DNA of 24,522 bases. Origin: a virus. Made by a program: the position numbers and the translations under genes. The DNA is taken from IMG/VR virus record IMGVR_UViG_3300044941_000449, positions 1 through 24,522 of that record; one strand, given 5' to 3'. The stretch's first letter is position 1. The number at the start of each line of letters is the position of its first letter. The notes under the pieces were generated by a model. The model made no database searches, had not been told where the DNA came from, and saw nothing but the letters and a program-made list of their open reading frames with translations. Below, piece by piece: positions 19,756-24,522 of this stretch.

Positions 19756-19787
19756 AATATGCAAACGAAAACAACAAATAATAACGG
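19756..19787. repeat. 32-bp direct repeat, copy 1 (start of the 227-aa gene)
   Basis: A 32-bp sequence starting AATATGCAAACG and ending AATAACGG occurs here and again at 20477-20508 in the same orientation, perfectly conserved. It covers the start codon and the first codons of the gene at 19759. Confidence 0.8.
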
Positions 19788-20442
19788 GAACAATGTGTTA
19801 GAGGATGTTTTTTCTCTATTTTATGGCAATGACGTAATGCGTCCAGTAATGCTAAAACCCTTTGTAGTGGGTAATAATACCTATGCTACCGATGCTTATA
19901 CACTTGTAAGATGCAACAATGACAAAATAGATTTTGAATTTGAAAACAAAGAAACTCCTTTAAATGTAGAAGCTGTAATTCCTGAAATAAACACATCTGA
20001 AATAATAAATATTGATGGTGTTGATTGGATTGGCTTGATGAATAAAGATGAAACTATTGCCGATGGAAACGATGTAGTGTGCGGACATTGTAATGGCGAA
20101 GGCTCTTGTGATGATAGTTTTTTATACAAAAATAAATTTTACGATTTTGAATATGAATGCCCTGTTTGTGATGGGTCGGGTTACGAGGAAGAAGTAAAAC
20201 AAATACCAACCGGCAACAAAACATTTGGGTCAAATGACATGATTAAATTTAAAGGAGCTTATTTCTATGCTAATAAATTTTATAAACTCAAAAAAGTAAA
20301 AGATTTGATTGGTGGTGATGTCGAACTAATCTCATATAATACCAATAACAAAGGTTTTTTATTTCGCATAGGAATTGTCGAAATATTAATTATGCCTTGT
20401 ATGTTTAACTCCGAAAACTATGTTGTCGCAAATATCACCTAA
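19759..20442 (+). CDS. Clamp-like phage protein with inserted zinc knuckles (227 aa)
   Basis: A 227-residue protein. The N-terminal part has MLKPFVVGNNTYATDAYTLVRC, which recalls the hydrophobic strand and ATDxxxLV motif of beta sliding clamps, and the C-terminal part has GIVEILIMPCMF, typical of clamp-like phage proteins. Inserted between them are two zinc-knuckle motifs of the DnaJ CxxCxGxG type (C108/C111, then C134/C137 as CPVCDGSG). I suggest a processivity or replication accessory protein. The clamp similarity is remembered resemblance, while the zinc motifs are seen directly. The 5' end of this gene is duplicated downstream. Confidence 0.55.
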   Translation: MQTKTTNNNGNNVLEDVFSLFYGNDVMRPVMLKPFVVGNNTYATDAYTLVRCNNDKIDFEFENKETPLNVEAVIPEINTSEIINIDGVDWIGLMNKDETIADGNDVVCGHCNGEGSCDDSFLYKNKFYDFEYECPVCDGSGYEEEVKQIPTGNKTFGSNDMIKFKGAYFYANKFYKLKKVKDLIGGDVELISYNTNNKGFLFRIGIVEILIMPCMFNSENYVVANIT

Positions 20443-20458
20443 CTTGTAAATAGATGAA
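20441..20458. repeat. Imperfect 18-bp direct repeat, copy 1
   Basis: AACTTGTAAATAGATGAA here resembles AACTTGCAAATAGACGAA at 20807-20824, with 16 of 18 positions equal. This copy overlaps the stop of the 227-aa gene, and the other lies in the last codons of the 88-aa gene. It may mark the edges of a duplicated or inserted segment. Confidence 0.5.
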
Positions 20459-20476
20459 CAATATTAATTTTAGTAT

Positions 20477-20508
20477 AATATGCAAACGAAAACAACAAAT
20501 AATAACGG
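20477..20508. repeat. 32-bp direct repeat, copy 2
   Basis: Exact second copy of the sequence at 19756-19787. It gives a new ATG and the first ten codons of the 227-aa gene without the rest of it. Confidence 0.8.
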
Positions 20509-20554
20509 CATGGCAGCTTTGCGTTCGTGCTGCACTTTTAAACCGAACGCTTAA
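20480..20554 (+). pseudogene. Truncated copy of the 227-aa gene start (24-aa ORF)
   Basis: ATG at 20480 opens a 24-codon frame that begins with the same ten residues as the gene at 19759 (MQTKTTNNNG) and then diverges to MAALRSCCTFKPNA before TAA at 20552-20554. It looks like a remnant of a partial duplication or a rearrangement junction. It might also be a leader peptide for the next gene, 20 nt further on. Expression is unproven. Confidence 0.4.
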
Positions 20555-20627
20555 CTTAAACAACAAATTTTGATATGAAAACAAATGTAAATAATACCAC
20601 CGAACCGCAGCATGACGCAAAACTGCC
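20512..20627. repeat. Imperfect inverted repeat around the start of the 88-aa gene
   Basis: Arm 1 at 20512-20533 (starting GGCAGCTTTGCG) pairs with arm 2 at 20607-20627 (GCAGCATGACGCAAAACTGCC reads the opposite way). About 19 of 22 positions match. The arms enclose 73 bp that include the ATG at 20575. A second, smaller stem, GCGTTCG (20521-20527) with CGAACGC (20544-20550), is mutually exclusive with part of arm 1. The alternative folds might control translation of the 88-aa gene. The segment could also be the remnant of a small mobile element. Confidence 0.5.
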
Positions 20628-20841
20628 TGTTAGCTGCCGTTTTTATCGTGGGTACACAATTAAAAAACACGGTTACTATCCACCAGACAAATGCGTGTGG
20701 TGGGAAGCGGTTAACGATGAAACTGGTGAAGCAGATTTTCATGCCCACCGATTGAAAGATATTATATGGATGATAAACGAAGCGTTGGGTGTCTCAAATG
20801 GCTTACAACTTGCAAATAGACGAAGGTTTGCCACAACGTAA
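20575..20841 (+). CDS. Small phage protein, unknown function (88 aa)
   Basis: An 88-residue protein. The core FYRGYTIKKHGYYPPDKCVWWEAVNDETGEADFHAHRLKDIIWMINEA resembles the small phage proteins with a beta-hairpin, a W-containing middle and a final helix (D/E-rich loop, then KxIIxxID-like). Their function is not known. The first residues, MKTNVNNT, are loosely like MQTKTTNN at the start of the upstream gene. The coding start lies inside a possible long hairpin (20512-20627). The last codons carry the second copy of an 18-bp repeat. Spacing to the next gene is 45 nt of AT-rich DNA. Confidence 0.55.
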   Translation: MKTNVNNTTEPQHDAKLPVSCRFYRGYTIKKHGYYPPDKCVWWEAVNDETGEADFHAHRLKDIIWMINEALGVSNGLQLANRRRFATT

Positions 20842-20886: not shown

Positions 20887-21351
20887 ATGAATCTCACTAA
20901 AAATTTCACATTAGCAGAACTAACAGCCTCAAATAAAGCTGTTGAATTATCCTTAAATGAACAGTTCACACCCGAACGACGCATCGTCCAAAATCTTACA
21001 AAACTATGCACTCAAATCCTGCAACCTCTTCGTGATAAAATTGGGCCGGTGCGGATTACTTCCGGATATCGTTGCCCACGCCTGAACGATGCCGTTGGTG
21101 GTGTAAAAAATTCTGCCCACCTGCAAGGACTTGCGGCTGATATTGCATTCAATGATAAAGCTCACGCAACCTTAATTATCGAAACCCTGATCAGTGTCGG
21201 AGCTAAACGAATCGGCCTCAATGCCAGGTTCATTCATGTAGATATTGATTACACCAAGCCCCACCCTGCTGTATTTGATTACGGCAACGCAACGCCAAAA
21301 TGGATGCAAGCCAATCGAGCATTATGGCTCAAAAAAATGTCAAACAATTAA
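20887..21351 (+). CDS. M15 family peptidase, endolysin candidate
   Basis: A 154-residue zinc peptidase of the M15 (D-Ala-D-Ala carboxypeptidase-like) type. It would cleave peptidoglycan stem peptides or cross-links. The signature is complete: ITSGYRCPRLNDAVGG at about 57-72, then SAHLQGLAADI with zinc ligands H78 and D85, and a second His-containing strand FIHVDID with H117. There is no signal peptide, so export through the holin (gene at 2396) would be expected. In many Bacteroidota phages this family is the lysis enzyme. The Cas9 homologue starts 11 nt after its stop, so the two are probably co-transcribed. Confidence 0.85.
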   Translation: MNLTKNFTLAELTASNKAVELSLNEQFTPERRIVQNLTKLCTQILQPLRDKIGPVRITSGYRCPRLNDAVGGVKNSAHLQGLAADIAFNDKAHATLIIETLISVGAKRIGLNARFIHVDIDYTKPHPAVFDYGNATPKWMQANRALWLKKMSNN

Positions 21352-21362
21352 TACACGATAAT

Positions 21363-24137
21363 ATGAATCTCAACATCTATGTCGGCTTACGAGCCATTGC
21401 TTTCGTCCTCACTGAAGGAATTTCCGTTGTAAAAACCGGAATAAAAAGAGTAAATATCAGCTTCGATAATTACTATGAATTTATTGCCGGCTTGCCGGTG
21501 AGCAAAAGGATTAATAAAAGATTAAAGGCGGGCGCCAGGCGCAACCTTTGGCGATATAAAAGCCGAAAAGCCAATTTAAAAAGGCTGCTTCTAAAGCATT
21601 GCAATTGCAAGCCGGAGCCTCTAACCAGAATTGCCAACCTCCAGCTCCGCGTGAAAGGCTTAACCCAGCAATTGACACCACAAGAACTCACCAATGTGCT
21701 CTGCCAATTGCAAATAAAACGTGGCTATTACAGCCAACGTGGCGTGAGTGATAACGACAACAGCGATTACCTCAAAGAGATTGAACGCCATGAAGAAAAC
21801 CTGAAAGCCTATCCATCAATAGCGGCTTATCTACTCACGATGGAAAGCAGTACGAATATCATTTTTACCAGGAAAAGCTATGAAAATGAATTTAATGCCA
21901 TCATGGATAAGCAAGCCATAGACCCAACCCTGAGAAAGAAACTGTTTGACATCATTTATTACCAGCGACCTTTGAAAAAAGGAAATGTTTCAAAGTGTGA
22001 TTATGAAAAAAACAGAGAGGTTGTTCACGCTTCCAACCCGGTTTATCAGGAATTTAGAATTTTGCGCGATGTGCTGAATATTCACATTTATGACATCGAA
22101 AAAAATGAGGTTGAAATCCCATTCGAAATTCGCCAAAAATGGTTTATCAAATGCAACGAAGGAGCCAACCTCACAAAAGCCGCTTGCTTAAAAGATTTAG
22201 GATTGAGCAAGCCGACCCAATATAGTTGGTTTAGTGGCAAAATGATTGCCGGAAACCCCGTGAGTAAAGCTTTCAATGACTTGAAAATTCAGAAAGATTA
22301 CAACTTGTGGCAGGACATTTATTCGGCAACAACCAACGAGAAGCTTGCAAAATTATTGGCCCAAAAATACAAGTTCAGCGACCACATAATCAACGAATTG
22401 CTCGATCTTGATTTTAGCAAATTAGGTTGGGGCGATTTCAGCATGAAAGCTATCCGCAAGTTAATGCCATTGATGCGCCATGGCATGAAGCTAAAAGAAG
22501 CCATATTGGAAGTTTACGGCAAAGTTGATTTTGAGAACGTGGCTTTGCGCAACGTGGTATTAGAGCAACACTACCACAGCTACAAAGCCTTGGTAGAGCA
22601 AATAAAAAGCAAATATCCCATTACCAAAATTCAGTTTGAAATTGACCATCTTTTGAAACAGGGCAACAAAGGCCGCAAGGCAATAGCACAAGGGAAAAGA
22701 AAAGATGACAAGTTTGAAAAAGTAAATTCCCACTTATCAGCCTATAACCTAATGAAGCTGAAACTTTGGGAAGAAAGTGGCGGCATAAGCCCTTACGAAC
22801 CCGATGTTATCATTGATAAAAAAGAACTGTTCACCGATAAATATAACCTTGATCATATAGTCCCCAAGAGCAAAATATACGAACGAGGCATCCCCAACCT
22901 GGTGCTTTGCCCAACGCAATTGAACGAGCAAAAAAACAGGCTTACCGGTATTGATTTTGCACGGCAGTTGGGCATTGAAGATGAATATAGAAAAGCGGTT
23001 GAAACCTTTCCGGAAGGCAAGCAGAAATACTTGCTTATGGAAGAAAATGATATTCCTGATAATTGGATAAGCAAACGCCAAAACAGCGACTACAATACTA
23101 AGTGCTTCGCCACGATAGGCAAAGCAACTAATATCCCCAACAAGCTCATCAATCGCTACACCAGAGAATGGCTGAAAGAAAGCTGGAATGAGCAAGATGC
23201 ACGCCACTACTTAGCCAAGGCATGGACCATGGCCAATATGAGCCAGGAAACCGTTGACTACTTCGATAGCATAAAAGTACATAGTGAGCATAGCGACAGT
23301 GTTTCGGTTTATGACATCCAACCCGGGTTGCCGATGATTGACTTCAACGTTCCGGTTTTCATGCCACGCATCAAATTTTCAAGGCATACAAAATTCGGCT
23401 TCAATCCCCGGTTTGCATTGCACCAGGAAAGCGTATTCGGCAGGCGTATAACCAAAAAAAGAAATACCAAAGGCGAAATCATCGAAGAAGTATTTTTCAA
23501 AATAAGGCAGCCAATAAGCAAGCTGACAGAGCCTATGGTGTTGAAAATAATGGACAAAGCGATTCGTGAAAAAATTCAGGCAAGGATTAAAGAAAAAGGC
23601 AACCACGAAGACGGCATTTTATCGCTGATTGAAAACCCGGCAACCCACAATTGCAAGCCCATCAAAAGAGTATCGGTAAGCCAAAACGCAGAAAAAATAT
23701 TTGCATTACATTCTACCGATGGCAACGGCATCACCGGAAGATTCAGGGATTATGAAACCAAAACCGATTATGTGTTCAGCGATAAAAACTTTTGCCTCAA
23801 AGTTTGGATTGACGAAAAAGGCAAGGTGAAAAAAGAAACCATTACGCTACTCGAATACATCAACAAACTCAACAATGGCGAGCGAATAGACAAGGGCTTT
23901 TACTTACAAGAAAATGATGTGGTAGAACTAAACGGTAAGTATTGGTATTTGATTGGGGTAGCTGATAACCCATCGTTGCGCCCCGTAACAACGCTATCGG
24001 CAACCGATACACATAAGGTAAAGGCGGATGAATGGATGAAGCTGCAAAAAGTTTTTGTAAATCAAATGGGTGAAATCATAAAAAAACAAAGCCTTGAAAA
24101 TAGCAAGACAAATATCGCTACTGAAACAAACCCATAA
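21363..24137 (+). CDS. cas9-like: Phage Cas9 homologue, RuvC-degenerate with intact HNH
   Basis: A 924-residue type II-C-like Cas9, small for the family. Domains: RuvC-I remnant (1-47), arginine-rich bridge helix (48-76), REC lobe (about 77-415; IKRGYYSQRG at 118-127 and QRPLK at 201-205 are typical), RuvC-II with E426, HNH (about 455-560), RuvC-III remnant (about 600-640), and a WED/PAM-interacting-like end containing LHQESVFG at 686-693. HNH residues D497, H498, N512 and N521 are present, with the S. pyogenes H840-to-N863 spacing (23). RuvC is broken: the Asp of the first motif is Y6 in NIYVGLRAIAF, the His-His-x-x-Asp motif is H615-Y616-L617-A618-K619, so His is Tyr and Asp is Lys. I chose the ATG at 21363; an ATG at 21300 would overlap the peptidase gene. 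No cas1, cas2, CRISPR array or tracrRNA is visible. Confidence 0.92.
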   Translation: MNLNIYVGLRAIAFVLTEGISVVKTGIKRVNISFDNYYEFIAGLPVSKRINKRLKAGARRNLWRYKSRKANLKRLLLKHCNCKPEPLTRIANLQLRVKGLTQQLTPQELTNVLCQLQIKRGYYSQRGVSDNDNSDYLKEIERHEENLKAYPSIAAYLLTMESSTNIIFTRKSYENEFNAIMDKQAIDPTLRKKLFDIIYYQRPLKKGNVSKCDYEKNREVVHASNPVYQEFRILRDVLNIHIYDIEKNEVEIPFEIRQKWFIKCNEGANLTKAACLKDLGLSKPTQYSWFSGKMIAGNPVSKAFNDLKIQKDYNLWQDIYSATTNEKLAKLLAQKYKFSDHIINELLDLDFSKLGWGDFSMKAIRKLMPLMRHGMKLKEAILEVYGKVDFENVALRNVVLEQHYHSYKALVEQIKSKYPITKIQFEIDHLLKQGNKGRKAIAQGKRKDDKFEKVNSHLSAYNLMKLKLWEESGGISPYEPDVIIDKKELFTDKYNLDHIVPKSKIYERGIPNLVLCPTQLNEQKNRLTGIDFARQLGIEDEYRKAVETFPEGKQKYLLMEENDIPDNWISKRQNSDYNTKCFATIGKATNIPNKLINRYTREWLKESWNEQDARHYLAKAWTMANMSQETVDYFDSIKVHSEHSDSVSVYDIQPGLPMIDFNVPVFMPRIKFSRHTKFGFNPRFALHQESVFGRRITKKRNTKGEIIEEVFFKIRQPISKLTEPMVLKIMDKAIREKIQARIKEKGNHEDGILSLIENPATHNCKPIKRVSVSQNAEKIFALHSTDGNGITGRFRDYETKTDYVFSDKNFCLKVWIDEKGKVKKETITLLEYINKLNNGERIDKGFYLQENDVVELNGKYWYLIGVADNPSLRPVTTLSATDTHKVKADEWMKLQKVFVNQMGEIIKKQSLENSKTNIATETNP

Positions 24138-24150
24138 GGCAAAGCTATTT

Positions 24151-24522
24151 ATGAATGGCAGCAAGTTTTGGATTCCAAACGCTGCTATCATAGATATGAA
24201 ACCTGCATCGGTAGGCTATGATGTGGTTGTGGATGATTGGTTTGAAACCAACCATTTATTCACTGATATTTCCCTTGCCGAAATATTGCAACAAAAGCCA
24301 CCTGCATCAATAAAGTGGGTAACCGGCATAGAAGAAAAAGACTACCCTGCTGATTTGGTGCAGATACAAAAAGAAGCGGTGGAATTTGCAGTAAAATTGA
24401 AACGCAGCCTAATTTGGTTGTGGACAGGTTCCGGCAAAACAAAGATTGGAATTGAGGTTGCAAACACCCTTTTTAATCATGGAAAGATTAAACGCCTTTA
24501 CTGGATCACCCCGCAATATGAA
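24151..24522 (+). CDS. SF2/SNF2-like helicase, 5' part (partial)
   Basis: ATG at 24151, open to the window end (124 codons). The first 80 residues are followed by a QIQKEAVEFA segment like the Q motif region of superfamily 2 helicases, then Walker A WTGSGKTKIG with G93, G95, K96 and T97, and then RLYWITPQ, which fits motif Ia. I infer an SNF2- or DEAD-like phage helicase. It starts 13 nt after the Cas9 homologue stop in the same direction, so the two are probably co-transcribed. The later motifs are beyond the window. Confidence 0.75.
   Translation, partial: MNGSKFWIPNAAIIDMKPASVGYDVVVDDWFETNHLFTDISLAEILQQKPPASIKWVTGIEEKDYPADLVQIQKEAVEFAVKLKRSLIWLWTGSGKTKIGIEVANTLFNHGKIKRLYWITPQYE

Follow-up and report, generated by a model that had tools for sequence, protein, structure and literature searches.

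A RuvC-dead, HNH-intact phage Cas9 with its own predicted tracrRNA: a candidate anti-CRISPR that may load host crRNAs

Anti-CRISPRs derived from Cas proteins are rare. The closest described system is that of Altae-Tran et al. (2023, Science; PMC10910872), whose main text reports a phage type II-C Cas9 in which RuvC is inactivated and HNH is intact, with an SNF2 helicase as neighbour and no CRISPR array. The same text describes a putative trans-activating CRISPR RNA (tracrRNA) with an anti-repeat to host repeats, states that spacers of the matched host target the phage, proposes capture of CRISPR RNAs (crRNAs) as an anti-CRISPR strategy and calls the complex of phage tracrRNA and host crRNA more stable. 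Koonin and Makarova (2024; PMC11656645) regard such phage Cas9 proteins as likely crRNA-sequestering anti-CRISPRs. Here, we examined a cas9 gene in the virus record IMGVR_UViG_3300044941_000449, all 24,522 bp of which are called the window, together with three other IMG/VR contigs, namely G001, a near-twin of the window, G002 and G398. This type of system has already been reported, as a prediction, in PMC10910872, and the likeness extends to the phage genome, the dead RuvC, the intact HNH, the SNF2 helicase, a tracrRNA nearby and the lack of a detected array. Added here are three deeply separated lineages (down to 46% identity) and an unexpected partner gene of the TET/JBP type; the main text of PMC10910872 mentions neither TET, JBP nor a dioxygenase.

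Other known systems bear comparison. RNA anti-CRISPRs (Racr, solitary repeat units; PMC10651486) are likewise phage-encoded pieces of CRISPR RNA directed against the host, but the phage RNA described here is a predicted tracrRNA and is accompanied by its own Cas9. Nuclease-dead effectors carried by mobile elements, Cas12m and Cas12k among them, are also RNA-guided and RuvC-inactivated, but they belong to another effector type and have arrays, whereas the phage Cas9 keeps HNH intact.

The gene and the parts of it that carry the argument are located in the window as follows.
21363–24137, plus strand: type II-C Cas9 of 924 amino acids (aa), RuvC-dead and HNH-intact (open reading frame, profiles, alignment and model)
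21378–21380, plus strand: codon of Y6, at the position of the RuvC-I catalytic Asp (the 79 bacterial relatives scorable here all have D)
21504–21602, plus strand: Arg-rich long helix, residues 48–80, at the bridge-helix position (DSSP of the model; R59, R60, R64 and R68 invariant)
22638–22640, plus strand: codon of E426, the RuvC-II catalytic Glu, retained (alignment)
22812–22946, plus strand: HNH core, residues 484–528, with D497, H498, N512 and N521 (Pfam HNH_4, alignment)
23208–23219, plus strand: RuvC-III, with Y616 and K619 in place of His and Asp (alignment; K619 shared by all three phage lineages)

The open reading frame begins with ATG and runs for 924 codons with zero internal stops. 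Its product matched the NCBIfam profile TIGR01865 across residues 47–910 (184 bits, cut-off 100; E=4.4e-54), the PADLOC Cas9 profile (E=7.5e-27) and Pfam HNH_4 (E=1.6e-9). An AlphaFold2 model of moderate confidence (mean pLDDT 76.6) had full-length type II-C Cas9 proteins as its best PDB matches, Nme1Cas9 at the top (E=1.8e-32) and SaCas9, and these matches indicate a Cas9 fold with RuvC, REC, HNH and PI parts. Elsewhere in the window there are profile matches to portal, tape measure, integrase, holin, terminase and a repressor-like regulator.

Catalytic positions were read from an alignment of the window protein with 81 relatives. Positions 6, 616 and 619 are D, H and D in 79/81 relatives, with the remaining two gapped, and Y, Y and K in the window protein; every scorable bacterial relative retains the RuvC catalytic residues. 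Position 426 is E in 80/81 relatives and in the window protein. H615, which is adjacent to Y616, is also kept; the phage orthologue furthest from the window protein (G398) has S there. The HNH residues H498, N512 and N521 are conserved in the alignment, while position 497 is D in the window protein and eight relatives and E in most. The original prediction was of a phage-encoded Cas9 with an intact frame, with D>Y6, H>Y616 and D>K619 replacements that leave only E426 of the RuvC site, and with D497, H498, N512 and N521 present in HNH. It was borne out in each respect, including the phage origin (by the portal, tape measure, integrase, holin and terminase profiles), and its residue numbering was exact. 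With RuvC dead, the complex could at most nick the target strand and would not make a double-strand break.

Searching viral contigs for homologues yielded three orthologues. Cas9 is 97% identical to that of the window in G001 (42,788 bp, with a 127 bp direct terminal repeat), 71% in G002 (a second phage, 37,423 bp) and 46% in G398 (a third phage, 58,771 bp, detected via its tracrRNA). The cas9 frame is open in all four contigs, and the three phage lineages all carry Y6, E426, K619, D497, H498, N512 and N521, such that HNH residues and two RuvC replacements are conserved together. Between the window and G001, the ratio of non-synonymous to synonymous substitution rates (dN/dS) in cas9 is 0.11, and the RuvC segments are no less constrained than the remainder. 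As the orthologues keep this pattern at 97%, 71% and 46% identity and dN/dS is 0.11, we conclude from the sequences that the phage Cas9 is under selection and not decaying, as had been argued from the window alone.

In a Cas9 tree, the phage pair falls beside larger Bacteroidota Cas9s (support 90/81); the branch leading to it is very long, at 2.65 changes per column, and the best local matches are about 25–36% identical. Bacteroidota chromosomal type II-C Cas9 proteins thus form the nearest clade, and share full-length homology, HNH and the tracrRNA family with the phage protein, but the latter is only ~25% identical to them and shorter (924 aa vs roughly 1,100–1,550 aa), and the phage system is RuvC-dead with no cas1 or array found. 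The host of the virus would be among Bacteroidota-type bacteria. No bacterial copies were found in samples of 395 genomes (one phylum) and 393 genomes (one order), nor by a peptide scan of the genome collection, each a weak negative. Few viral contigs in the searched collection have the system, and the scans used short exact patterns that divergent members can escape.

Some other records and comparisons touch on this gene. L004 (MT837457.1), a 6.8 kb 'Bacteriophage sp.' record, encodes a Cas9 whose RuvC and HNH residues are intact, and could be a piece of bacterial or plasmid DNA. The IMG/VR 'viral' contigs L189 and L192 resemble pieces of a bacterial type II-C CRISPR locus, with a Cas9 that has an intact RuvC-I motif beside Cas1/Cas2-like genes in L189, and both are probably misclassified as viral. 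Between the window and G001, which are near-identical in other aligned parts, the differences from 20810 on are nearly all in the first ~700 cas9 codons (window 21110–23510), are densest around HNH and number zero between about 23510 and the window end. This looks like allele replacement within cas9.

A 5.3 kb block is common to G001 and G002 (g1 35060–40353 vs g2 29114–34413, g1 and g2 being the two contigs in reverse-complement orientation). It contains genes for Cas9 (71% identity), a helicase (77%), a 75 aa open reading frame (58%) and a 237 aa protein (81%), followed by a non-coding element. Homology starts 4 nt before the cas9 ATG and ends just beyond that element, and G001 and G002 have no further common gene at blastp E<1e-4. 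We interpret this unit as a transferable cassette, common to otherwise unrelated phages. The window includes the start of its second gene.
24151–24522, plus strand: start of an SF2/SNF2-type helicase gene, 13 bp past the cas9 stop and truncated by the window end (full copy in the twin, L002:12789–14279)
The cassette helicase has Helicase_C, ResIII and phrog_62 matches. In G398, the order is Cas9, an SNF2-related helicase (SNF2-rel_dom E=1.6e-12; 22.5% identity with its G002 counterpart, E=1.5e-8), a radical-SAM protein and then the non-coding element. The radical-SAM-like protein (L195:10205–11455) occupies the place of the gene for the 237 aa protein in the other two phages. As G398 has a helicase and no homologue of the 237 aa protein was detected in it, we take the helicase to be core to the cassette and the 237 aa protein accessory.

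The non-coding element lies antisense to the cassette and 3' of it in G001, G002 and G398, ~2 kb beyond the window end; there is no Rfam match within the window. It consists of an anti-repeat, ATAAGG, a nexus hairpin (GGC-loop-GCC in the phages vs GGA-loop-UCC in bacteria) and a terminator hairpin with a T run, and we read it as a type II-C tracrRNA. A covariance model trained solely on 33 bacterial II-C tracrRNAs found it in the three phages with 33.4, 32.2 and 34.5 bits (E 2.6e-5, 5.4e-5 and 1.6e-5), and returned no further significant match in them (next-best E at least 0.56). The anti-repeat core GCAAATCACAA is complementary to AGCAAATCACAAC, with which 22 repeats end and which is the most frequent repeat end among the Bacteroidota arrays sampled, and the G001 anti-repeat is complementary at 15/15 nt to many Bacteroidaceae repeats. 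A predicted Bacteroidetes-type -7 box (TAnnTTTG) is located 9, 6 and 5 nt before the anti-repeat GCAAATC in the three phages, compared with mostly 13–17 nt in bacteria. Such short distances leave no space for a built-in spacer, and the phage tracrRNAs seem reduced to the most conserved lower stem. The original prediction of an RNA-guided nickase or binding protein fits these features; the RNA partner would be the tracrRNA of the cassette, and guides are absent.

One further contig, IMGVR_UViG_3300013936_000003 (61,121 bp, with a 77 bp terminal repeat), has, at L197:12761–12838 on the minus strand, a canonical Bacteroidota II-C tracrRNA that scores 79.7 bits (E=4.9e-17) and comes with a -7 box of its own. 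No relative of the phage Cas9 and no CRISPR array were recognised in it, and it is a possible tracrRNA-only anti-CRISPR.

Of the components of a type II immune system, the tracrRNA is present in G001, G002 and G398, and the array and adaptation genes are absent as searched. No CRISPR array was found in the window, G001, G002 or G398 by k-mer spacing or with bacterial comparator repeats. The comparator repeats also found no solitary repeat above chance, matching only the tracrRNA itself, and no Cas1 was found in the window, G001 or G002. Because the anti-repeat is complementary to host-type repeats and no other source was found, we infer that the crRNAs would come from the host.

The 237 aa protein gave no direct Pfam match, to Tet_JBP or otherwise. 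However, 28/30 sequences aligned with it matched Tet_JBP (best 1.2e-16), and H165, D167 and H215 (HxD...H) and R225 are invariant in the 30. Foldseek top matches of its model (pLDDT 73) were all TET-type (E 4e-8 to 1e-6), and the structures matched include CcTet, CMD1 and NgTET1 (E about 1e-7) and TET2 (1e-5). By motif and modelled fold, we assign the G001 and G002 protein as a TET/JBP-type dioxygenase, which rules out its PHROG label, 'queuine tRNA-ribosyltransferase'. No cytosine-C5 methyltransferase partner was found by a motif scan of open reading frames. Phage TET/JBP dioxygenases, such as those of actinophages (e.g. Rhodococcus phage Tonitrus), have the same catalytic motif and fold but, unlike that of the cassette, were linked to Cas9 in 0 of the 78 other phage loci examined. 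We confirmed dioxygenases akin to that of the cassette in 270 stretches of IMG/VR (L108–L187) as well as in actinophages, where some are annotated as 'queuine tRNA-ribosyltransferase', apparently a misannotation.

Taken together, we consider it probable that this arrayless, phage-borne type II-C effector is a biomimetic anti-CRISPR that loads host crRNAs via its own tracrRNA. In this view, the phage Cas9 would remain able to fold and to bind a tracrRNA:crRNA pair, and the phage would supply the tracrRNA but no spacers, such that crRNAs from host type II-C arrays are loaded. The resulting complex would compete with the host Cas9 over crRNAs as well as over the protospacers of the phage genome, and the SNF2/SF2 helicase, plus the TET/JBP dioxygenase in two lineages, may act on the same DNA.

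Several points weigh against this explanation. The activity is a prediction, both here and in the main text of Altae-Tran et al. The HNH residues are strictly kept, though a pure decoy would need no active HNH, and pure sequestration is therefore insufficient as an explanation. The 815 spacers of the comparator arrays gave only short matches to the phages (best 20/21 nt), none of them convincing. Using predicted starts, and with true hosts that may differ, the phage anti-repeat duplexes were weaker than the cognate tracrRNA duplexes for 28/28 sampled bacterial repeats. The phage duplex is thus no more stable than the cognate one in this sample, and the greater stability described in PMC10910872 may not be general. 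Finally, the window stops inside the helicase gene, before the TET gene and tracrRNA, and these were read from G001, from which the shared DNA of the window does not differ from about 23510 to its end.

The strict conservation of HNH in every orthologue would be accounted for if the complex were used offensively, with the phage or prophage turning borrowed host crRNAs and its HNH site to the nicking of rival phages or plasmids. This would provide superinfection exclusion at less risk of self-cutting. HNH-only Cas9 nickases can restrict phages, with target-strand nicking by HNH alone able to protect (PMC12455587), and the integrase and repressor-like regulator of the window phage indicate that a lysogen could gain. 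However, the phage's own genome would be nicked too when host spacers match, and the location of cas9 on the same strand as the replication genes suggests early lytic, not lysogenic, expression. We consider this unlikely.

RNA-guided DNA modification or regulation seems somewhat harder to credit. Cas9 would here direct the helicase and dioxygenase to sites that match a crRNA, perhaps so that phage protospacers are masked or host genes altered. The genes for Cas9, the helicase, the 75 aa product and the dioxygenase, plus the tracrRNA, form one contiguous unit in otherwise unrelated phages, with the three large proteins 71–81% identical. The dioxygenase retains HxD...H and R, and its model matches CcTet, CMD1, NgTET1 and TET2. 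On the other hand, G398 has Cas9, the helicase and the tracrRNA but no detected TET gene, TET/JBP genes are common in Cas9-less phages and may act genome-wide, and the dioxygenase was not seen fused to Cas9, leaving gene adjacency as the link. The most specific version, a natural RNA-guided DNA-marking machine in which Cas9 with a hijacked crRNA opens and may nick a site while the helicase and TET/JBP protein oxidise bases, for example to mask host-targeted protospacers, is doubtful. If true, such marking would parallel, in nature, what engineered dCas9-TET tools do.

A self-guided regulator, in which the tracrRNA has a natural built-in guide and Cas9 represses specific promoters, is very unlikely. 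The precedent is the long-form tracrRNA of S. pyogenes, which is said to carry a natural guide (work attributed to Workman, 2021, and cited in PMC10651486). In the three phages, only 5–9 nt separate the predicted -7 box from the anti-repeat core, which places the expected transcript start at the anti-repeat, and beyond that point, where homology ends, the upstream sequence differs between phages. Least probable of all is a decaying captured Cas9 or relic HNH homing gene, as the long branch and the loss of three catalytic residues are outweighed by a frame open in four contigs, a co-conserved tracrRNA, Y6 and K619 replacements identical at 46% identity, and a dN/dS of 0.11 that includes the RuvC segments and, with orthologue conservation, rules out a pseudogene.

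Upstream of cas9 in the window there is an endolysin-type peptidase gene (20887–21351). Just upstream of this peptidase-cas9 block is an exchanged module, window 19802–20800 (genes 19759–20442 and 20575–20841), in place of which G001 has unrelated genes (L002:7165–9438). The window also contains an exact 32 nt direct repeat. The first copy (19756–19787) spans the start of the gene at 19759, and the second (20477–20508) is intergenic, 721 nt downstream.

The idea of crRNA hijacking is directly testable, given a complete-looking 42.8 kb genome, three lineages, a transferable cassette and tracrRNAs that an independent covariance model recovers. The kept HNH site and the TET/JBP partner raise the question of whether a phage may use the memory of its host to nick or mark DNA.
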